A stretch of 64,000 bases of DNA from Acidimicrobiales bacterium (GTDB taxonomy: Bacteria > Actinomycetota > Acidimicrobiia > Acidimicrobiales > JAVJTC01): NCBI GenBank assembly GCA_040219085.1, contig JAVJTC010000023.1, positions 1 through 64,000 on the forward strand, given 5' to 3'. The first letter of the stretch is position 1; every line of letters starts with the position of its first letter. The notes beneath the pieces are model-generated. The model was not told the DNA's origin, ran no database searches, and saw only the letters and a list, made by a program, of their open reading frames with translations. This document shows positions 48,807 to 59,927 of this stretch, piece by piece. The position numbers and the translations under genes were made by a program.

Positions 48807-49796
48807 ATGCGACTCGTTGTCGTCGGAACCGGCGCGGTGGGTCGGCGCGTCGCCCGTGGTCTGGCCACATCGCCTCGTGCCCGCAGCGTCGTGCTGGTTT
48901 CACGCTCACCTGAGCGAGCGGCGCGCACGGCCGCCCGGATCGGTGGCCGCTGTGAAGCCGCTGGGGATCTCACCGAGGCCCTCGCCACCGACCCTGACGC
49001 CGTCGTCGTCGCCACGCCGGCTGGGACTCAGGGGCGGGTGGTCCGTGAAGCGCTCATGGCGTTGGTGCCCGCGGTCACGACAGCGGACACACCTGGTGAG
49101 ATCCGCGAACTCCTGGCCCTCGACGCGGAAGCACGCGAGCGGGGGGTGCCCGTCGCCGTGGGGGCGGCCTACTCGCCCGGCCTGACGTGTTTGTTGGCGG
49201 CGCGGGCGGCCGAGGGCTTCGACGAGGTCACCGAGATCCACGTGGCCCGCCACGGTGCGGGAGGGCCGGCGTGCGCACGGGCCTATCACGCCGCACTCGG
49301 ATCGGCGGGGGTCGGATGGCGTGATGGCACCTTCATCCGTCGCACCGGCGGGAGCGGCCGGGAACTGTGCTGGTTCCCGGGACCCGTCGGCGCCCTCGAC
49401 TGCTATCGGGCGGCGCTCGGTGAGCCCCTGGTCCTGCACCCGGCCTTCAGAGAAGTCACCCGGATCACGGCGCGACGCGCGGCGCGGCGCCGGGACCGTT
49501 TCACCGCGCGCCTGCCGATGCTCGGACCACCACCCCAGGAAGGCGGTGTCGGTGCGGTCCGGGTCGAGGTGAGAGGTCGCCGTGACGGCGGTACCACCGC
49601 TGTCGTGCTGGGCTCCTTCGGCCGTCCCTCGGTGGCTGCCGCCGCCGTGGCCGCAGCGACGGCGCTCGTCGTGGGTTCCGGTGGGTGGCTCCATCGTGGC
49701 GCGGCGGGCCTCGCCACCGGTGCGCCGGTGCGGGCCACGCTCGCCGAGATCGCAGAGGCGGGCGTGATGGTCTCGATCTTCGATGGTGTGCGCTGA
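48807..49796 (+). CDS. NAD(P)-binding Rossmann-fold oxidoreductase-like protein
   Basis: A 329-residue protein with N-terminal dinucleotide motif MRLVVVGTGAVGRRVARGLA and a second motif AVVVATPAG, as in saccharopine-dehydrogenase or Gfo/Idh/MocA-type enzymes. The C-terminal half (RVEVRGRRDGGTTAVVLGSFGRPSVAAAAVAAATA) resembles the substrate domain of saccharopine-dehydrogenase-like proteins. The substrate is not known. It stands alone between tRNA-Ile and the sigma-factor gene. Confidence 0.75.
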   Translation: MRLVVVGTGAVGRRVARGLATSPRARSVVLVSRSPERAARTAARIGGRCEAAGDLTEALATDPDAVVVATPAGTQGRVVREALMALVPAVTTADTPGEIRELLALDAEARERGVPVAVGAAYSPGLTCLLAARAAEGFDEVTEIHVARHGAGGPACARAYHAALGSAGVGWRDGTFIRRTGGSGRELCWFPGPVGALDCYRAALGEPLVLHPAFREVTRITARRAARRRDRFTARLPMLGPPPQEGGVGAVRVEVRGRRDGGTTAVVLGSFGRPSVAAAAVAAATALVVGSGGWLHRGAAGLATGAPVRATLAEIAEAGVMVSIFDGVR

Positions 49797-50026: not shown

Positions 50027-50908
50027 ATGAAAACGATCGGCGACGCCGTTGACGGCGCACGGAAGTCCGACACCGGGAGTCACGACGAGCTCATCGAGAG
50101 CCATCTCGGTCTCGTCGATCAGGTTCTGAACCAGGTCATCTCCCAGTTCCCCCGCCATGTCGAGCGCGAAGAACTCGCGCGGGCCGGTTCGCTCGGTCTC
50201 GTGGAGGCAGCCCGGCGTTTCGATGCCGACAGGGGCGTGCCGTTCGCCGCATTCGCCGCCCGGCGGATACGCGGCGCCATGCTCGACTCGGTGCGGGCCA
50301 TCGACTGGGCTCCCCGGTCGGTCCGTCGCCTCAACCGGGAGTTCGAGCGGACCGAGCAGGCACTGGCGGCGCGGCTGGGGGAGAAGCCGGACCTCGAGAC
50401 GACCGCGGCCGAAATGGGCGTGACGACCGCCGAGGCCCACCGCCTGCGCGCGAAGGTCGAGCGGGCCTCGGTGCTCGCGCTCGACTACGCGACCGTGGAT
50501 CTCGACGGCGATTCCATCACCCTGGGCCAGTCGCTCGCCGACACCTCCACGCCGTCCGCAGCCGAGACGCTCGAGACCCGGGAGATGCTCGGCTATCTCC
50601 GTGAGGCGATCGCCCTGCTACCGGAGCGGCACCGCATCGTCGTGACCGGGTACTTCCTGGAGGGTCAGACCTCGTGCGAGTTGGCCGAACTGCTCGGTGT
50701 CACCGAGTCGCGGATCTCCCAGATCCGTAGCGAAGCCACGGACCTCCTGCGTGAGGCGATCTCAGCGCAGTACGAGAGCGAAGAGACCCGGACCCCCACC
50801 CGGTCCCGGGCCGCCACCCTGGCCGAGGCGATCTCCAACGGCGGCGACTGGCGGGGCCGACTCGTCGAGTCCCCCCTCGAGATGGCCGCGCTCACACTCG
50901 CCGGCTGA
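50027..50908 (+). CDS. sigma-70 family factor, FliA/WhiG type
   Basis: A 293-residue sigma factor with region 2 (HLGLVDQVLNQVISQFPRHVEREELARAGSLGLVEAARRFD, about 27-67), the FliA-like FAAFAARRIRGAMLDSVRAIDWAPRSVRR, region 3 (about 105-150), and region 4 HTH (RHRIVVTGYFLEGQTSCELAELLGVTESRISQIRSEA, about 205-240). The class controls flagellar genes or, in Streptomyces, sporulation. About 50 further C-terminal residues are not typical. No flagellar genes are in the window. Confidence 0.87.
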   Translation: MKTIGDAVDGARKSDTGSHDELIESHLGLVDQVLNQVISQFPRHVEREELARAGSLGLVEAARRFDADRGVPFAAFAARRIRGAMLDSVRAIDWAPRSVRRLNREFERTEQALAARLGEKPDLETTAAEMGVTTAEAHRLRAKVERASVLALDYATVDLDGDSITLGQSLADTSTPSAAETLETREMLGYLREAIALLPERHRIVVTGYFLEGQTSCELAELLGVTESRISQIRSEATDLLREAISAQYESEETRTPTRSRAATLAEAISNGGDWRGRLVESPLEMAALTLAG

Positions 50909-51656
50909 CCACCTTCAACAGGTCGCGGTGCAGTGGGCCGTTCGAGCCGACGACGTCCCCACTCCTCGGTAGCGGCGCTCCGGCGAAGTCGGTGACCACG
51001 CCGCCCGCCTCGGGGACGATCACGTTCATCGCGGCGACGTCCCATGGGTTGAGGCCGGGATCGACCATCGCGTCCACGCGCCCGGTGGCGAGCAGCGCCC
51101 AGCCGTAGCCGTCTCCCCAGGTGCGTACGAGTGGCCCCGCGGCGCAGAGGCCGTCGATGAGGCCCGGGGGCAGGTATTCGAGGCCGCTCATGGTGATGCA
51201 GGCGCCGGCCATCGTCGCCGTTGGGCTCACGTGGCACCGGCTGCCGTCAGCGTGGCACCCCAGGTCGCGGGCGGCCGCGACGACCGAGCCCAGCGCCGGA
51301 AGCCCGATGACCCCAACCGCGGGCCCGTCGCCGTCGGTGACGGCGAGCAGCGTCGAGTAGAGGGGGACGCCCCGCGCGAAGGATTTCGTTCCGTCGATCG
51401 GGTCGATGATCCATGTCCGATCCGATGTGCCCACCGAGTCGGACATCTCCTCGCCGACCACAGCGTCCTGGGGGTGCCGGCGGGCTATCTCGTCGCGCAA
51501 CCAGGCTTCGACCGCGCGGTCCGCGACGGTCACCGGGGAGCCGTCGGCCTTCGCGTCCACCTCCAGGTCGGATGTCTGGAACCAGCGCAGGGTCATGGCC
51601 CCGGCTTCGGTGACGAGGGCGACGGCCTCGTCGAGGAGGCTCTCGAGGGTGGTCAT
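50892..51656 (-). CDS. inositol monophosphatase family protein (HisN-like)
   Basis: A 254-residue Mg-dependent phosphatase: VTVADRAVE, GEEMSDS with the metal-binding glutamates, WIIDPIDGTKSFARGVP (about 85-101), and the C-terminal NPWDVAAMNVIVPEAGG. Inositol-1-phosphate, histidinol-phosphate or PAP could be substrates. ATG 51656 overlaps the acyltransferase stop (ATGA). Last gene of the coupled operon; its end overlaps the sigma gene end on the other strand. Confidence 0.9.
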   Translation of the reverse strand: MTTLESLLDEAVALVTEAGAMTLRWFQTSDLEVDAKADGSPVTVADRAVEAWLRDEIARRHPQDAVVGEEMSDSVGTSDRTWIIDPIDGTKSFARGVPLYSTLLAVTDGDGPAVGVIGLPALGSVVAAARDLGCHADGSRCHVSPTATMAGACITMSGLEYLPPGLIDGLCAAGPLVRTWGDGYGWALLATGRVDAMVDPGLNPWDVAAMNVIVPEAGGVVTDFAGAPLPRSGDVVGSNGPLHRDLLKVVSRRV

Positions 51657-52681
51657 CGTGGGGCCCCGTCGTCTTCGCGTCGCCGCTCGCCGATCCATCG
51701 GTCCATCTCCAGCCACACGTCGAGAAGGTAGCGGGCGAACTCCCCGGGGTCCTCGGGGACCTCGGCTCGTGGGATCCTCCACAGCCGCGCGTGGACGGGG
51801 GAGCGGAAGGGGATGTTCCGCCAGGTGCGCGGTAGCGAGGAGAACGGTTCGAAGCCGGTGTGGCCGAGGATCACGAGGTCGGCGTCGGGGGCGCCCTGCA
51901 TCAGGGCGAAGGTCCCTGCCGGCCTCGGGGGGAGGAGGTACTCGAGCTTGCGGGCGGCCTCGGCGGCGGCGGGATCGGAGTCGCCGAGTCGCGCGATGGC
52001 CCGCTCGAAGCGCTCGGGGGTGCGGAACGTCCCCTCGGGGAAGATGGCGATGCTGGTCTCGTGGTCGGCGTGACCGCCGAGTTCGCGAATCGGGGCGAGT
52101 TCGCTCTCGCGGTCCCGCGGCGACCGGTCGACGAAGTGGTGAGGGGCGCGGTGCCCGACGAGGTCGAGGCACGGGTCCCACGCCAGGTCCTGCTTGAACG
52201 TGTGCAGCAGTGCGATCCGGTGGGGGACCGCCACCAGGAACGTGGGCATGAGGGCGTCGCCCAGGCTGATGTGGCGGGCGATGACGATCGCCGGTGCGGG
52301 GAGGGCCTGTTCGGTTCCGCTCACGCGCAGGTCCATGCCGAAGATGCGGATCATGGCCCGGGCGAGGCCGCCCACCCACCAACGTTGCAGGGCGTGGTGG
52401 GCGTTCTGGAAGCGTCGCCGGCCCATCGCCAGTCCGAAGCCCGAGAGGACCCACAGGAGGCCGAGCGTGGTCAGCCCGACGACCTCGCGATAGAGGTACG
52501 CACCGGCGAACGCCCAGGCCCGGAGGAAGCGGCGCCGTCGGATCCCCCCGATGAGATCCGCGAGGGCGAGCACCGGCACCAGCAGCGGCGCGCTGACGAC
52601 GTACAGGCCGGCGCTGGTGAACATGGCGGGCACCGTCACCGCCCGGCGCCGCAGCCTCCCCGGGATCTTCTTGGAGCTCAC
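51653..52681 (-). CDS. 1-acyl-sn-glycerol-3-phosphate acyltransferase-like (PlsC domain)
   Basis: A 342-residue membrane acyltransferase. TM segments lie about 17-42 and 55-85. The PlsC catalytic motif H-x4-D appears as VIARHISLGDAL and the glycerol-phosphate motif as IFPEGTFRTPERFERA. It should acylate a lysophosphatidic-acid-type substrate at the inner membrane. The GTG start overlaps the kynB stop (GTGA). Confidence 0.87.
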   Translation of the reverse strand: MSSKKIPGRLRRRAVTVPAMFTSAGLYVVSAPLLVPVLALADLIGGIRRRRFLRAWAFAGAYLYREVVGLTTLGLLWVLSGFGLAMGRRRFQNAHHALQRWWVGGLARAMIRIFGMDLRVSGTEQALPAPAIVIARHISLGDALMPTFLVAVPHRIALLHTFKQDLAWDPCLDLVGHRAPHHFVDRSPRDRESELAPIRELGGHADHETSIAIFPEGTFRTPERFERAIARLGDSDPAAAEAARKLEYLLPPRPAGTFALMQGAPDADLVILGHTGFEPFSSLPRTWRNIPFRSPVHARLWRIPRAEVPEDPGEFARYLLDVWLEMDRWIGERRREDDGAPR

Positions 52682-53346
52682 GCGTCCATGCTCTCAGGCA
52701 GCGCGCGCAGCACGGCCCGCACGGGGCTCGCGTCGAATCCGACGAGGCGCAACGGCAGCGCGATCAGTTCGTAGGCGCCATCGGGCACGTCCCGCAGGTC
52801 GAGACCCTCGAGGATCGCGATGCCGGCGCCGATGCAGGACCTGTGGGCGGGAAGGTCCTTCGAGGTAACGGGGTCCACGCTCGGAGTATCGACCCCGATG
52901 AGCACGGCGCCCTCGGTGCCGAGCCTGTCGACGAGTGCCGGATCCAGGGCGGCGAACTCCGAGTCGAAGTCCGCCGCGGCTCCGTCGACGGCGACGGTCC
53001 GGATCAGCACCCGCGCCGCGGTCGGGTCGTCGACCGGCGCGTGGTCCACGTCGTCGGGGCCGATGAGCCCGGACGCGGGAACCCTCGCTGTGAGGACCCG
53101 ACAGGGGCCGATGTAGGGCGCGAGAGCGACAGCGTCGATGGACGCCGTACCACTGACGACGTGGGATGGAGCGTCCGCGTGGGCGCCCACGTGGACGGTC
53201 CCGTGCAGAGTCGACAGAGTGACGCTGTCACCGTCGTCGACCTGTGACAGGACCTCGCGTGACACAGGGGTGTCGCCGGGCCAGACGGGCGTGCGAGCTG
53301 AGACCGGCGGGGAGATGTCGTGGAGGATCGGGGCGGGTGTCACCAT
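52678..53346 (-). CDS. kynB: kynurenine formamidase
   Basis: A 222-residue cyclase-family metal hydrolase. The metal-binding HxGxHxDAPSH motif is HVGAHADAPSH with His52, His56 and Asp58; LIGVDTPSVDPVTSKDLPAHR is the family's second conserved block. With TDO and KMO beside it the assignment as the enzyme hydrolysing N-formylkynurenine is strong. It starts 10 bases after the TDO stop. Confidence 0.92.
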   Translation of the reverse strand: MVTPAPILHDISPPVSARTPVWPGDTPVSREVLSQVDDGDSVTLSTLHGTVHVGAHADAPSHVVSGTASIDAVALAPYIGPCRVLTARVPASGLIGPDDVDHAPVDDPTAARVLIRTVAVDGAAADFDSEFAALDPALVDRLGTEGAVLIGVDTPSVDPVTSKDLPAHRSCIGAGIAILEGLDLRDVPDGAYELIALPLRLVGFDASPVRAVLRALPESMDA

Positions 53347-53356
53347 GGTCGGTGGC

Positions 53357-54169
53357 TCAGAACCGGTGTCTGATGGCCCAGAGGTCGGGGAAGAACGGCT
53401 GGTTCAGAGTGGCGAAGAGATAGGCGACGCCGCCGGTTCCCCCCGTTCCGGTCTTGTTGCCGATGGTTCTCTGGACGACCTTGAGGTGTCGGTAGCGCCA
53501 TTCTTGGAACCCCTCGTCGAGGTCCACCAGCAGCTCGAAGAGCATCCGGGAACGATGCTCGGCCTCGTAGAGGGCGAAGATCATGTCCTGGATCCGCTCG
53601 TCGGGCCGGTGCGGATCCGTCACGGGGGCCTCTCGCAGATCGGCCGGGATCGTGAGGCCGTGGTGCTCGAGGAAGTCGAGCAGGTGGTCCGGGATGCTGC
53701 GTTCGTGGAGGCGACGCTCCGCGCTCTCGAACCCGAACATCGTCGGCGGGTACAACGCGAGGAGGTCCGCCTGCTTGTGGCCGAGGACGAATTCGATCTC
53801 TCGGAACTGCAGCGACTGGAAGCCCGACGACGTCTCGAGGATGGACCGGAAGCGACTGAATGACAGCGGTGTCATCGTCTCGAGGATCGCCAGTTGGGCG
53901 ACGAGCGTGGTGAGGATGGTCTTCGCCCGTCGCACGAGGTGCATCGACCCCCAGACGTTGCCCGAGCCGAGCGCTTCTTTGAGTCCGTCCAGCTCGTGGA
54001 GGAGTTCGTTGAACCACAGTTCCGTCGCCTGATGGATGACGATGAAGAGGTGCTCGTCATGCTCCACGGGGCTCGACAGCGGCTGTTGCAGCGAGAGCAG
54101 CTGGGGGAGTCGGAGATAGGACGCGTAATCCAGGGGCGGATCGCCCCGGTCGGAGCCCGCGGCCGTCAC
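53357..54169 (-). CDS. kynA: tryptophan 2,3-dioxygenase
   Basis: A 270-residue heme dioxygenase opening the indole ring of L-tryptophan to N-formylkynurenine. Seen: DEHLFIVIHQATELWFNELLHEL with the distal His46, SSGFQSLQFREIEFVLGH, and WRYRHLKVVQRTIGNKTGTGGTGG, whose His228 is the likely proximal heme ligand. The GTG start overlaps the KMO stop (GTGA). Confidence 0.95.
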   Translation of the reverse strand: MTAAGSDRGDPPLDYASYLRLPQLLSLQQPLSSPVEHDEHLFIVIHQATELWFNELLHELDGLKEALGSGNVWGSMHLVRRAKTILTTLVAQLAILETMTPLSFSRFRSILETSSGFQSLQFREIEFVLGHKQADLLALYPPTMFGFESAERRLHERSIPDHLLDFLEHHGLTIPADLREAPVTDPHRPDERIQDMIFALYEAEHRSRMLFELLVDLDEGFQEWRYRHLKVVQRTIGNKTGTGGTGGVAYLFATLNQPFFPDLWAIRHRF

Positions 54170-55482
54170 CGGCGCACCACAGCGACGATGACGGCTGTGA
54201 CGGCGGCGCAGAGCACCGTCGCTGCCGTGACGGCGAGAGCGTCCTGACGGCGCGCTCGTCGACGGGCCCGGGAATAGGGGATTCGCGTGAAGGTGACCAT
54301 CGTGTAGAGCGGAACGTAGTACCGCGGCGCCAGGCGGTGCGCCATGCGGCGCAGCGCGGCGAGAACCAGGAACCAGCGGGAGCCGACGTGGTCACGCATC
54401 TCGACGAAGTTGTCCATCGCCAGCGACGCGAGCGCATCGGTGTCCACCCGTCGTCGTGAGAAGGCGGTGAAGGCGTCACCGCGCCCGCCGTCCGCGAGTA
54501 GGTCACACAGAAGGGTCACGTCTTCGAGAGCGGCGTTCGCCCCCTGCCCGTAGAAGGGCACGACGGCGTGGGCGGCGTCACCCACGAGGACGACCCGGTC
54601 GTCGACGTTCCACGGGGCGGTCCTCACCGAGACGAGCCCCGACGCCGGGTTCGCCTCGTACTGCTCCGCCAGGTCGTCGCCGATCGCCTGGGCGGCGTCT
54701 GCGAAGAGCTCGGCGAATACGCGGGTCACGTCGGCGGGGGTCACGGAGCCGAAGCTGACGGGACCCTCGTGGGGCCAGAACAGCGTGGCTGTGAAACTCC
54801 CGTCCGTGTTGGGCAGGGCGATCAGCATGTGCGTACCACGCGGCCAGATGTGGAGGACCTCGGGCTCGAGGCGGTGAGTACCATCGGTTCCGGCCGCGAT
54901 GGTGAGCTCCTTGTAGCCGTGGCTGATAGCGGTGACCTCGTCGACCATCAGGCCGCGGTCGGCGAGGTCCCGGCGGACGCCGGAGAAGGCACCGTCCGCA
55001 GCGAAGAGAGCGTCAGCGTGGTGTGACCCCGCGTCAGCGGCCGCGACGCCGTAGCCGACGCGGCCGCTGTCGGATGTCAGGTCGATGCCGTGGACCCGCT
55101 CAGCGAAACGGAGCTGTGTTCGGGGGCTGGCGTCGGCGAGGTCGATCAGGGTCACACCGAGCTCGTCGCGGTCCACGGACAGGAGGTGCTCGGCCGGTGT
55201 GGTCCCGTAGGGCTGGCGCGTCAGCGTGCCGTCGACGGCGTGTATCAGCCGGGCCCGCATCGGTACCGCCCGGGCACGGACGTGGTCGGCGAGCCCGACA
55301 CGTTCGAGCGCGTCGAGGCCCCGCGTGGACAACGCGAGGTTGATCGAGCGTCCTTCGCCGCGTGGACCGCGACGGGGGTCGTCTCGGCGCTCGTGCACCG
55401 TGACGTCGTGGCCGGCCTGCCCCAGTCGTGCGGCGAGCAGCGCGCCCGTGAGGCCAGCGCCTGCGACCGCGTAGCGGCTCAC
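54166..55482 (-). CDS. kmo: kynurenine 3-monooxygenase with C-terminal membrane anchor
   Basis: A 438-residue FAD monooxygenase. Seen: dinucleotide motif VAGAGLTGALLAARLGQAGH, RSINLALSTRG typical of KMO, and VVLVGDAAHAVVPFYGQGANAALED (FAD motif). A hydrophobic helix at about 413-435 (ALAVTAATVLCAAVTAVIVAVV) ends the protein, like the outer-membrane anchor of eukaryotic KMO. It makes 3-hydroxykynurenine. GTG overlaps the RNase stop. Confidence 0.93.
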   Translation of the reverse strand: MSRYAVAGAGLTGALLAARLGQAGHDVTVHERRDDPRRGPRGEGRSINLALSTRGLDALERVGLADHVRARAVPMRARLIHAVDGTLTRQPYGTTPAEHLLSVDRDELGVTLIDLADASPRTQLRFAERVHGIDLTSDSGRVGYGVAAADAGSHHADALFAADGAFSGVRRDLADRGLMVDEVTAISHGYKELTIAAGTDGTHRLEPEVLHIWPRGTHMLIALPNTDGSFTATLFWPHEGPVSFGSVTPADVTRVFAELFADAAQAIGDDLAEQYEANPASGLVSVRTAPWNVDDRVVLVGDAAHAVVPFYGQGANAALEDVTLLCDLLADGGRGDAFTAFSRRRVDTDALASLAMDNFVEMRDHVGSRWFLVLAALRRMAHRLAPRYYVPLYTMVTFTRIPYSRARRRARRQDALAVTAATVLCAAVTAVIVAVVRR

Positions 55483-56924
55483 GCGAGGGAGAACCGGAGG
55501 CGCCGGGCGCCGGGATCGGCGAGGTCGAGCCGCAGGCCCACCCGGGAGCCCGGTGTCGCTGCGAGTGTGTCCACCGTGGTGACCACGGCAGGGTGGTCGA
55601 GCTGCACGACGGTGGAGTCCCCGCGGTTCTCGAGCACGGTCGCCGAGAAGATCTCACCGACCCGGCCCTCCAGTACCGCGGCCTCCATGTAGTCGACCTG
55701 AGCGCGGTGCAGGGCGGCGGCGCGCCGCCGGGCGCCCGACACCGTGTCGGGGAGTCCGTCGAGGGCCGCGAGCACCCACTCGGGTACCGGTCGACCCTCG
55801 GCCGAGGCGATCAGGATCTCGTTCGCGTAGCGGTCCGACAGGCGTCGGAGCGGGGCAGTCACGTGGGCGTAGGGACCGGCCAGCGCGTAGTGGTCGATGT
55901 CGCCGTGGACCGCGCCCTCCTGGAAGGCCATGTATCCGGCGCCCCGCAGCGCCCGGGCGCACCGGTACATCAGAGCGAGTTCGGTGGGCTTCGTGACGTC
56001 GAGACGCCGCACGAGTTCGGGATAGTCCGTCTCCGCGCTCCAGGTGACTCCCAGCGCCCGTGCGTCCTCGCGCAGCGCGTCGATGGTGGCGGGTTCGGGT
56101 CGGGGCAGAGTCCGGAGGACTCCGGTGCCGATCTCGAGCATCATCGCGGCGGCGGCGGCGCCCGTCAGCAGCGAGATCTGGGCGTTCCACTCCTCGATCG
56201 CGAGGGGAGCGTCGTAGTGCAGGACGTAGCCGGCGGGCGTGTGCCGGATCTCCTGGTCGGGCAGCCGCAGGTCGACGGCGCCCCGGTCGGCCTGGCGAGC
56301 GGCCCGGACGCGGCCGATGGTTGCGACGGCGCTGAGGGCGTCGTCCGCTCCTCCGGAATCGAGCAGGTTCTGAGCCTCGCGGTAGCCGACCGCGCGCCGG
56401 TTACGGACGGTGGCGCGCTCGACGTGGACGCCGCGCACGCCGACGTCGGCGTCGAGATCGAACGTCCACAGGACCGCAGGGCGGTCGGTGCCGGGGAACA
56501 GGGAGGCGATCTTTTCGCTGAGAACCTCGGGGTGGAGCGGAGTGCGTCGATCCGGGGAGTAGAGGGTGACTCCCCGGGCGTGGGTCTCGGCGTCGATGAT
56601 TCCGCCCGGCGTGACGAATGCGGCCGGGTCGGCGATCGCGTACCAGAGCCGATACCCGCCACCCACACGGCGCGCGGCGACGGCCTGGTCGATGTCGAGG
56701 CTGCCGGCCGGGTCTATCGAAATCAGGGGCAGGTCGCGGGCGTCGCGCCGGGTCGAGCGTTCGGCGCCCGGCGGCATCCGGGGCCCCTCCGACGCGGCTG
56801 ACGCGGCGGCGTCGGCGACGTCGTTGGGGAATCGTGTGGGCACCCGCAGCTCTGCCCGGATCGCCTTGAACCCGGCTTCGAGGGCGCGGTCGCTCTGGTG
56901 GAGCGTGAGCCGGCCGAGTTGCAC
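55479..56924 (-). CDS. RNB-domain exoribonuclease (RNase II/R family)
   Basis: A 481-residue RNB protein. The catalytic motif reads ISIDPAGSLDIDQAV, with Asp71, Asp77 and Asp79 but Gln80 where E. coli RNase II has its fourth aspartate; the form DPPGSxDLDQA is remembered as common in actinobacterial relatives. YMAFQEGAVHGDIDHYALAGPYAHVTAPLRRLSDRYAN is the second conserved block. N-terminal cold-shock domains are missing; a short C-terminal S1-like barrel may be present. GTG 56924 follows the upstream stop by one base. Confidence 0.87.
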   Translation of the reverse strand: MQLGRLTLHQSDRALEAGFKAIRAELRVPTRFPNDVADAAASAASEGPRMPPGAERSTRRDARDLPLISIDPAGSLDIDQAVAARRVGGGYRLWYAIADPAAFVTPGGIIDAETHARGVTLYSPDRRTPLHPEVLSEKIASLFPGTDRPAVLWTFDLDADVGVRGVHVERATVRNRRAVGYREAQNLLDSGGADDALSAVATIGRVRAARQADRGAVDLRLPDQEIRHTPAGYVLHYDAPLAIEEWNAQISLLTGAAAAAMMLEIGTGVLRTLPRPEPATIDALREDARALGVTWSAETDYPELVRRLDVTKPTELALMYRCARALRGAGYMAFQEGAVHGDIDHYALAGPYAHVTAPLRRLSDRYANEILIASAEGRPVPEWVLAALDGLPDTVSGARRRAAALHRAQVDYMEAAVLEGRVGEIFSATVLENRGDSTVVQLDHPAVVTTVDTLAATPGSRVGLRLDLADPGARRLRFSLA

Positions 56925-56925
56925 G

Positions 56926-59445
56926 TCAGGTGCCGGGGGTGCGGGTGGCGCGGAGCCGACGCAGACCCTGGTCGGGACCGCCCGACGTCGACGCGAGTCG
57001 TCCACGCGCGGCCAGGACCGTGATCCGGTCGGCGCTCACGAGGACGGGAGCGAGTTCCAGCTCCACCAGCTCGGGAACCGCGTCGGCGAGCGCACTGACC
57101 CGGTGGACCAGTTCTGCGAGGTGATCTGTGTCGGCGCCGCGCCACAGATCGCGCTTGCGGGGTCCCGCCGCGGCGGTGGGCGCGGCGATCAGCTCGGCCG
57201 CGTCGATGTCGGTGAGCGGCACCGTCGCGAGGGATCGTTCCTCACCCTCTCCCAGGTGGGACCCGAGCGTGAAGACCACGTGGGGGCCGAAGGTCCTGTC
57301 GCTCACCACGCCGAGCGCACACTCGACACCGACCGGGTCGCCGGCGAGGGGGAGGACCTCCGGGGCCACTTCGATGCCGACCGTGCGGAGCAGGTCGCGT
57401 AGAACGGCACCGGGGAGTCGCCGGTCTCCGTGTTCGGTGTGTGCTGACGCTGCGAGTCTGCGCGCGTCGGCGGCGTCGACCCGGTCCAGATCGGGCACCT
57501 CGCCGAGGGGGCGGTGCCGCCAGGCGACGTGGGCTGCGATGAGGCCGAGAGCCACGGCGGGGCTCTCGGGGAAGTCGAAGACCGGCACGGCCCGCCCGTC
57601 GACGGTCGGGATGACCGCACCGAGGTCACCGGCGAGGAAGCAGGCCAGGACCGTCTTGTCGGGTCGGGCAGTCGAGGCGGTGCGGATGGCGTCGGCGACG
57701 GCCTCGTGGTCCCCTGCGAGCGGGTCCGTGTAGACGACGATGACCGTGTCGGTGCGGTTGTCGGCGAGGACGTGTTCGAGGGCGACCTGGTAGTGCGCCG
57801 GTGACGCCGCCCGGCCCAGGTCGACCGGGTTGGTCACATCCGGGGCGTCGGGGAGGGCTTCCCGCAGTGCCGCCACTGCCTCCTCGCCGAGGTGGTGGAC
57901 GTCGAGGCCCGCTCCGAGACATGCGTCCGCGGCGAGGATGATGGGCCCGCCGCTGTTGCCGACGATGGCCACGCGGCGTCCCGCCGGTATCGGTTGGTTG
58001 TCGAGGACCCGGGCGACTTCGACGAGTTGCTCGAGAGTCGGGACCCGGATGATCCCGGCCTGGCGGAACAGTGTCTCGGCGAGGTCGTCGTTGGTGATGC
58101 GCTCGCCGATGGTCGAGGGCGTTCCCGATCGGGGGCCGCTGTGGCCGCCCTTCACCGCCACGATCGGCTTTGTGCGCCCGATCCTGCGTGAGATGCGCGA
58201 GAACTTCCGGGGGTTGCCGAAGGACTCGACGTAGAGGAGGATCACGCGCGTGTTCGGGTCGTCCTCCCACCACTGGAGAAGGTCGTTGCTCGACACGTCG
58301 GCCTTGTTGCCGAGCGACACGAACGACGAGAAGCCGAGACCCTGTTCGCGGGCCCGATCGAATATCGCCACCGCGAGGGTCCCGGACTGCGATGCGAGCG
58401 CGACCGATCCGGGAAGCGGCTGTTTCGGCGAGAACGTCGCCGCGAGGCGCACGCCGGGAGCGGTGCTGACGAGCCCCATCGAGTTGGGACCGATCATCCG
58501 CATGCCGTGGCGGCGGACGCGCTCGGCCAACTCGGATTCGAGCCGGGCCCCTTCAGGCCCCGTCTCGGCGAATCCCGCGGAGATCACGAGGACGGCCGGG
58601 ACACCCGCTGCGGCACAGTCGTCGATCACGCCGATGACGTCAGGGGCCGGCACGGCGACGACGGCGAGGTCGACCGCCTCGTCGATCTCTCCCACCGACG
58701 GGTACGTGCGCACGCCCAGGACGCTCTCGGCGCTGCGGTTCACGGGGTGCACGGTGCCCTCGTAGCCACCGTTGAGGAGATTGCGCAGGACCGCGTGACC
58801 GATGGAGTCCTCGCGCCGACTGGCTCCGACGACGGCCACGCTGCGGGGTTGGAGGATCGGCTCGATGGACGCGGCGTCTGCGTCGTGCTCACGGGCCGAG
58901 ACGCTGTCGGGGTCGATGGTCGAGATGTCGATGGCGACGTCCCAGATGCCACCCTCGAGGGCCCGGCTCACGCGGAACCCGGCGAGTTCGAACACCCGCA
59001 GCATCCGGACGTTGTCGCCGAGGGTCTCGGCGTGGAAGCGCGTGATGCCCCGGGAGCGGGCGTACGCCGCGAGGTGCTCGAGCAGGAGTGTGCCCAGGCC
59101 CCGGTCCTGGTGGGCGTCGGCGACGGTGAAAGCGACCTCGGCGCTGCCACGCGTGGTCTCCCAGTCGTAGGTGGCGATCCCGATGATCTCGTCCTCGTGT
59201 TCGGCCACCACCGCGTGGTGTCGGTCGTGGTCGATGTCCACTGCGGCGGCGATCTCGGCGCCGCCTGGTCTGTGGGTCGAGAAGAACCGGTCGTGGAGCG
59301 TTCTCTCCGACAGGCCGTCGGAGAACCGTCGCAACGCCTCGATGTCGTCGCCGACGAGGGGCCTGATGCGCACCACTCCGCCGTCGTGTGCGACGGCGTC
59401 CACCGCCCATTCGCCTAGGTCGTCGCCGGATCGAGGTCTGTCCAC
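56926..59445 (-). CDS. GNAT fused to NDP-forming acyl-CoA synthetase-like domains (Pat-like)
   Basis: An 839-residue fusion. GNAT domain about 25-175 (VAFTVADAHQDRGLGTLLLEHLAAYARSRG); CoA-binding domain about 198-290 (RSVAVVGASRREDSIGHAVLRNLL); succinyl-CoA-ligase-like domains about 345-640 (GSVALASQSGTLAVAIFDRA, FVSLGNKADVSSNDLL, VAIVGNSGGPIILAADA). The C-terminus (about 700-835) keeps only the end of an ATP-grasp domain. GNAT is N-terminal, opposite to E. coli Pat. A protein-lysine acyltransferase role is inferred. First gene of the operon; GTG 59445. Confidence 0.85.
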   Translation of the reverse strand: MDRPRSGDDLGEWAVDAVAHDGGVVRIRPLVGDDIEALRRFSDGLSERTLHDRFFSTHRPGGAEIAAAVDIDHDRHHAVVAEHEDEIIGIATYDWETTRGSAEVAFTVADAHQDRGLGTLLLEHLAAYARSRGITRFHAETLGDNVRMLRVFELAGFRVSRALEGGIWDVAIDISTIDPDSVSAREHDADAASIEPILQPRSVAVVGASRREDSIGHAVLRNLLNGGYEGTVHPVNRSAESVLGVRTYPSVGEIDEAVDLAVVAVPAPDVIGVIDDCAAAGVPAVLVISAGFAETGPEGARLESELAERVRRHGMRMIGPNSMGLVSTAPGVRLAATFSPKQPLPGSVALASQSGTLAVAIFDRAREQGLGFSSFVSLGNKADVSSNDLLQWWEDDPNTRVILLYVESFGNPRKFSRISRRIGRTKPIVAVKGGHSGPRSGTPSTIGERITNDDLAETLFRQAGIIRVPTLEQLVEVARVLDNQPIPAGRRVAIVGNSGGPIILAADACLGAGLDVHHLGEEAVAALREALPDAPDVTNPVDLGRAASPAHYQVALEHVLADNRTDTVIVVYTDPLAGDHEAVADAIRTASTARPDKTVLACFLAGDLGAVIPTVDGRAVPVFDFPESPAVALGLIAAHVAWRHRPLGEVPDLDRVDAADARRLAASAHTEHGDRRLPGAVLRDLLRTVGIEVAPEVLPLAGDPVGVECALGVVSDRTFGPHVVFTLGSHLGEGEERSLATVPLTDIDAAELIAAPTAAAGPRKRDLWRGADTDHLAELVHRVSALADAVPELVELELAPVLVSADRITVLAARGRLASTSGGPDQGLRRLRATRTPGT

Positions 59446-59543
59446 CCACCCAGTTTCGCGTCCCGCGGCCGTCGGGGACGAAACAGACCCTGACGCATTC
59501 CGACTCGAAGGCGTGTGCGATCCTTGGAGCGGGAGGTCCGCCC

Positions 59544-59927
59544 GTGACCGAGAAGTTCTTTCCATACCGCATCGACGAACGCTGGAGCCGCATGGCGCGC
59601 CTCTTCGGGTTCCGTCCCGGCGTCGACGGGGTGACCGTCGACGACGACACGTTCGTGGCCACCTACGGGGGCAAGCGTGTCGAGGTTCCCCGGGCCGGGA
59701 TCGACGGTGCGCACATCACCCGGGACTACACCTGGTACAAGGCGGTCGGCACGAGGCTGTCCTTCGTGGACGACGGCCTCACGTTCGGCACCTGCACCGA
59801 CGGTGGCGTATGCGTGCACTTCGCCCCGAGGATTCCCAAGGTGATCGGTTTCCGGGACCACTCGGCGCTGACGGTCACCGTCGAGGACCTCGAAGGACTC
59901 GTGGCCGAGCTCGACCCGCCCGGGTGA
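59544..59927 (+). CDS. conserved hypothetical protein, 127 residues
   Basis: A small beta-rich protein (VTEKFFPYRIDERWSRMARLFGF at the N-terminus, then WYKAVGTRLSFVDDGLTFGTCTDGGVCVHFAPRIPKVIGF). It has two cysteines, a plausible ribosome-binding site GGGAGG seven bases before the GTG, and good codon use. No family was recognised; a PH-like or SRPBCC-like fold is imaginable but not shown. It overlaps the lipoprotein gene by GTGA and diverges from the GNAT-fusion gene. Confidence 0.7.
   Translation: MTEKFFPYRIDERWSRMARLFGFRPGVDGVTVDDDTFVATYGGKRVEVPRAGIDGAHITRDYTWYKAVGTRLSFVDDGLTFGTCTDGGVCVHFAPRIPKVIGFRDHSALTVTVEDLEGLVAELDPPG

Follow-up and report, generated by a model that had tools for sequence, protein, structure and literature searches.

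The 64,000-nucleotide (nt) stretch analysed here (the window; positions 1 to 64,000 of the forward strand of contig JAVJTC010000023.1, assembly GCA_040219085.1 of an Acidimicrobiales bacterium) carries an operon on its minus strand that includes genes for kynurenine 3-monooxygenase (KMO), tryptophan 2,3-dioxygenase (TDO) and the kynurenine formamidase KynB. We propose, with a probability of roughly 0.8, that this operon provides the first half of a complete pathway from tryptophan to nicotinamide adenine dinucleotide (NAD), the second half of which is encoded at unlinked loci, and that its KMO belongs to a clade of bacterial enzymes that end in a helix.

The KMO gene (54166..55482, minus strand, 438 amino acids, GTG start) encodes a protein of Pfam family FAD_binding_3 that matched solved structures in the PDB over its full length, with scores of 277 bits for rat KMO and 260 bits for Pseudomonas fluorescens KMO. 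The AlphaFold model, which was built on an alignment of 19 KMOs and has a mean predicted local distance difference test (pLDDT) score of 91.5, likewise matched the fold of characterised KMO from end to end in a Foldseek search. Residues R78, Y92, N358 and Y393 are invariant in a family alignment that includes the rat and P. fluorescens enzymes, and they align with Arg84, Tyr98, Asn369 and Tyr404 of the latter, which we take to be its kynurenine-binding positions. Judged by its sequence, the protein is a kynurenine 3-monooxygenase, and NADPH-dependent hydroxylation of L-kynurenine is its predicted activity. TDO (53357..54169, minus strand, 270 amino acids, GTG start; PF03301, 188 bits) aligns end to end with the Xanthomonas campestris enzyme (2nw7) and retains the heme-ligand His and the GTGG loop. 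KynB, of the cyclase type (52678..53346, minus strand, 222 amino acids, ATG at 53346; PF04199), matches the solved KynB 4cog and retains the cyclase fold and the metal motif HxGxHxDxPxH. The agreement of Pfam and TIGR profiles with the PDB matches puts all three genes where a preliminary description, made from the sequence alone, had placed them. The scores of two of the proteins speak to some degree against these assignments: TDO reached 247 bits with TIGR03036, under the equivalog cut-off of 390.7, and KynB reached 204 bits with TIGR03035, slightly under the cut-off of 223. Because both fall below the NCBI equivalog cut-offs, we regard them as divergent family members.

In the proposed pathway, TDO would open tryptophan and KynB would then remove formate; KMO would hydroxylate kynurenine to 3-hydroxykynurenine; kynureninase (KynU) and 3-hydroxyanthranilate dioxygenase (HAAO), encoded elsewhere, would turn this compound into the quinolinate precursor; and NadC would make nicotinate mononucleotide. 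A profile search of the genome gave no match to kynureninase or HAAO on the window's contig, as the preliminary description had noted for the locus. Kynureninase was identified on contig C35 of the same genome (282.7 bits against a cut-off of 246.4), HAAO on C27 (PF06052, 120.4 bits; TIGR03037, 153.8 bits against 145.95) and NadC on C43 (277.6 bits against 198.4). All three were confirmed as proteins, and all three lie above the curated cut-offs; the complete tryptophan-to-quinolinate set (TDO, KynB, KMO, KynU, HAAO and NadC) is present in one genome. The earlier suggestion that the pathway may end at 3-hydroxykynurenine was therefore incorrect, and because KynU, HAAO and NadC are found elsewhere, the pathway is a routine one on the terms of the preliminary description itself. 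One could still envision that the pathway ends at 3-hydroxykynurenine, which is then used for another product such as a pigment, an antibiotic or a signal. The operon, lacking kynU and HAAO, has the content that such an end point calls for, but the presence of both genes elsewhere above curated cut-offs, together with NadC, refutes the strict form of this hypothesis, and we consider its chances very remote. A branch use of 3-hydroxykynurenine is possible.

NadB bears on whether the pathway serves NAD synthesis. Of the genes that the preliminary description had named for a genome search, kynU, HAAO and nadA were found, and nadB was absent; the assembly is 96% complete, and the best match to NadB scored 191.9 bits against a cut-off of 452.75. 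A NadB candidate on contig C45 was rejected as SdhA, which adjoins SdhC and SdhB in an sdhCAB operon. In a survey of 118 genomes of the order, with HAAO counted above its cut-off and NadB at E values up to 1e-80, NadB was present in 2 of 14 HAAO-positive genomes (G169 and G309), as compared with 78 of 104 HAAO-negative genomes. That HAAO and NadB rarely occur together favours a role in NAD synthesis, which we infer to be the main use of the pathway.

Several observations argue against this conclusion. The Fisher test of co-occurrence (p 1.7e-5) counts related genomes as independent, and G309, the genome of the same order with the most similar operon, also has NadB. Moreover, the window genome encodes NadA (324 bits) and an NadX-like aspartate dehydrogenase (PF01958, 102 bits; NF009828, 175.5 bits); the genome loci listed for aspartate dehydrogenase and NadA, alongside the kynurenine pathway and without NadB, are C7:63081-63344 (L012:988-1809), C2:132702-133733 (L004) and C43:66766-67575 (L011). 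Given these two enzymes, the kynurenine route to quinolinate may be dispensable, a second route to quinolinate may coexist with the complete kynurenine pathway, and a catabolic role is possible. The alternative hypothesis, then, is that the pathway serves mainly to break tryptophan down, for carbon, nitrogen or detoxification, and that NAD is made from aspartate via aspartate dehydrogenase and NadA. Both enzymes accompany NadC in the genome, and the pathway genes lie at no fewer than three places, with no single biosynthetic cluster, as this hypothesis would have it. On the other hand, the mutual avoidance of HAAO and NadB is what would be expected if one replaces the other, and aspartate dehydrogenases serve other routes too; the feeding of NadA by this one is putative. 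We think that breakdown is unlikely to be the principal role, and we favour NAD synthesis.

The second part of our proposal concerns the C terminus of KMO. Its last 25 residues are strongly hydrophobic, with a 19-residue Kyte-Doolittle mean of 2.57 at residue 418; of 20,000 25-residue sequences drawn at random with the composition of the protein, only 2 reached 2.5. The membrane-type stretch extends over approximately residues 415–436, and the AlphaFold model shows one continuous 35-residue helix at residues 403–437 (pLDDT approximately 93–96). The closest solved fold to the model is full-length rat KMO (6lkd; TM-score 0.88–0.89 by query). In the PDB alignment, where the human KMO tail was used solely to bring out the rat tail, the hydrophobic stretch of the rat enzyme starts directly after the same Gln column as the window KMO tail. 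The likeness to the eukaryotic anchor that had been suggested earlier is thus borne out in position, and a membrane location is predicted. The segment that precedes the helix, RRARRRARRQD, is strongly positive and is for this reason expected on the inner side of the membrane. The catalytic domain would then probably lie in the cytoplasm, tethered by the helix to the cytoplasmic side of the cell membrane. The C-terminal membrane helix is a solid prediction, from which we infer the membrane insertion and orientation described.

Alternatively, the hydrophobic segment might not be an anchor but might belong to a C-terminal helical lid like that of soluble KMOs and pack on the catalytic domain. P. 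fluorescens KMO is soluble yet has a helical C-terminal region, and the actinomycete tails, being alanine-rich and less hydrophobic, would also suit packing. However, the helix of the model is unbroken over all 35 residues, its hydropathy is within the range of transmembrane helices and almost never reached by random composition, it coincides with the hydrophobic C-terminal stretch of full-length rat KMO, and soluble-type KMOs carry a polar tail at that position. Packing therefore seems quite improbable to us, and we retain the membrane anchor.

Among the 80 bacterial loci that scored best in a tblastn search with the window KMO, a hydrophobic tail is clear in 19 and weaker in one, a share that reflects this choice of loci and is not a frequency for bacteria at large. 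The tailed enzymes come from Planctomycetota, Verrucomicrobiota, Myxococcota, actinomycetes (with the alanine-rich, less hydrophobic tails mentioned above) and bins labelled Pseudomonadota and Tanganyikabacteria. The preliminary description had called such a helix unexpected in bacteria, but the tailed clade spans at least five phyla, and a tail that is common to a bacterial clade is no surprise of this one gene. With the tail columns removed, the bacterial tailed KMOs, including the short-tailed L071, formed one clade in each of two trees (support 92/93 and 89/92), and the window KMO was sister to that of G309 (100/95). The five other KMOs found in the order are of the soluble type and fall in a separate clade. 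The possibility that the window KMO is a variant of these soluble enzymes was dismissed, since its placement in one clade with them, its closest relative included, was rejected by the approximately unbiased (AU) test (p 0.0145). The Myxococcota-labelled L071 (L071:5950-7302) branches basally in the tailed clade; its tail, short and rich in alanine, may be an intermediate or degraded anchor. No description of a bacterial membrane-anchored KMO clade was found in the literature searched, a coverage that left out most subscription journals and that therefore makes weak evidence for novelty.

The phylogeny that had been proposed as a check thus places the window KMO within a tailed bacterial clade, and the grouping of all tailed KMOs, bacterial and eukaryotic, as a single clade was not rejected (AU p 0.60 and 0.50). 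In the trees, the mammal and yeast KMOs fall among Bacteroidota with weak support and on long branches. The eukaryotic sequences were from two mammals and from yeast; the yeast sequence was checked against 4j2w in its catalytic part and used without its tail. One hypothesis is that KMO anchoring arose once, in bacteria, ahead of the acquisition of the enzyme by eukaryotes, and that animals and yeast inherited their mitochondrial anchor from tail-anchored bacterial KMOs such as this one, although we regard this single origin as doubtful.

The operon consists of seven genes in the same direction, all on the minus strand (50892–59565), of which KMO, TDO and KynB are the third to fifth. The first gene (56926..59565) encodes a fusion of a GNAT domain with an acetate-CoA-ligase-like protein (Pfam Succ_CoA_lig, CoA_binding_2 and Acetyltransf_1; TIGR02717, 438 bits). 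The second (55479..56924, boundary read from the sequence), just upstream of KMO, encodes an RNase II/R-type exoribonuclease with an RNB domain (147 bits) and RNase_II_C_S1. KynB is followed by a 1-acylglycerol-3-phosphate acyltransferase-like gene (51653..52681, GTG start; PF01553) and, last, by a gene for a HisN-like phosphatase of the inositol-monophosphatase family (50892..51656, ATG start; PF00459, 161 bits; TIGR02067, 232 bits against a cut-off of 275). The RNase, acyltransferase and phosphatase that had been reported for this seven-gene operon are accordingly all present.

As read from the sequence, four of the six junctions are overlaps of 4 nt and a fifth is a gap of 1 nt. GTGA overlaps occur at the RNase/KMO, KMO/TDO and KynB/acyltransferase junctions, and an ATGA overlap joins the acyltransferase stop to the phosphatase start. 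The ligase-like and RNase genes are separated by 1 nt, given an RNase start at GTG 56924; this start, 1 nt past the acyl-CoA synthetase-like stop, is the most likely one, and a start at 57005 was set aside in its favour. Overlapping stops and starts had been described for the three pathway genes, which is correct for KMO and TDO; the TDO stop (53357–53359) and the KynB ATG (53346) are separated by a 10-nt gap, so that the description fails at that one junction. The operon is tightly packed and probably translationally coupled, and its seven genes would be expressed as a single transcript, although a promoter and terminator scan recognised none, which does not help this view. The third-position GC content of KMO, TDO and KynB is similar to that of the neighbouring genes and thus does not point to recent insertion of foreign DNA. 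A gene for a sigma-70-family factor with regions 2 and 4 (50027–50908, plus strand), judged by eye to be FliA/WhiG-like, runs convergently to the operon and overlaps its last gene by 17 bases. A GFO/IDH/MocA-type NAD-binding oxidoreductase is encoded nearby (48807–49796, plus strand); it was rejected as an aspartate dehydrogenase, having no match in the Asp_DH_C search of its own genome.

Relatives were compared at the level of the order, as family-level searches returned the window genome alone. With AT denoting the acyltransferase, the arrangement is RNB-KMO-TDO-AT-x-x-HisN in G309 (L134) and RNB-x-KynB-AT-...-HisN in G277 (L136); an RNB-KynB pair occurs in G323 and G254 (L135, L137), while G318 and G256 (L138, L139) have RNB-AT but none of the pathway genes. 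Part of the operon is thus conserved in other families of this order. The RNB-AT(-HisN) neighbourhood itself is conserved, and because the pathway genes are present in some RNB-AT loci and absent in others, they form a component of it that varies but recurs. Elsewhere in the order, genomes instead carry a compact cluster, HAAO-KynU-KMO-TDO, whose KMO is of the soluble type. HAAO is also of two types: that of the window genome shares 53–56% identity with its counterparts in G256, G270 and G309, and about 37% with the cluster HAAOs. Two versions of the pathway are thus seen in one order (L152-L161, L019-L023), one in which the genes are scattered and the KMO is tailed, the other with a compact cluster and a soluble-type KMO, each with its own type of HAAO. 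The frequency of KMO in the order, 6 of 247 genomes in one sample, is only rough, as other surveys drew different genome samples.

The pathway is a known one and its scattering over the genome is ordinary; the operon is unusual as a gene neighbourhood, yet it recurs. What is known of bacterial KMO comes mostly from the soluble Pseudomonas enzyme, a widely used stand-in for the human drug target, and many Pseudomonas KMO structures were among the Foldseek matches to our model. Compact bacterial KMOs that end in one helix at the same place would offer a simpler system in which to study membrane-bound KMO and would allow ideas on the origin of the mitochondrial anchor to be tested.

A similar block is KMO-TDO-KynB of a Phycisphaerales bacterium (L043), which has the same gene order, a tailed KMO and the highest TDO score among the scanned loci (274 bits); unlike the window operon, it has no relatives of the RNase, acyltransferase or phosphatase genes that we could find nearby. 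As compared with the bacterial tryptophan-to-quinolinate pathway (Kurnasov et al. 2003, as cited in PMC4217691), the full enzyme set is the same, namely TDO, cyclase-type KynB, KMO, KynU, HAAO and NadC, but here some of the genes lie in an operon with RNase and acyltransferase genes and the others at distant loci, and NadA and aspartate dehydrogenase coexist with them. P. fluorescens KMO (5fn0, 6fox) belongs to the same enzyme family as the window KMO, with 38% identity and the same active-site residues, but no membrane-type helix has been reported for it, and it shares a clade (98/91) with the other KMOs of the order. Mammalian KMO (rat 6lkd; human 5x68) is located in the outer mitochondrial membrane, and the human enzyme is reported to lose activity when its C-terminal region is removed (PMC3969302). 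The window KMO shares the fold and catalytic residues of the mammalian enzyme, with about 40% identity to the catalytic part of rat KMO; the mammalian protein continues with a further stretch beyond the helix, whereas the window KMO stops at the helix.

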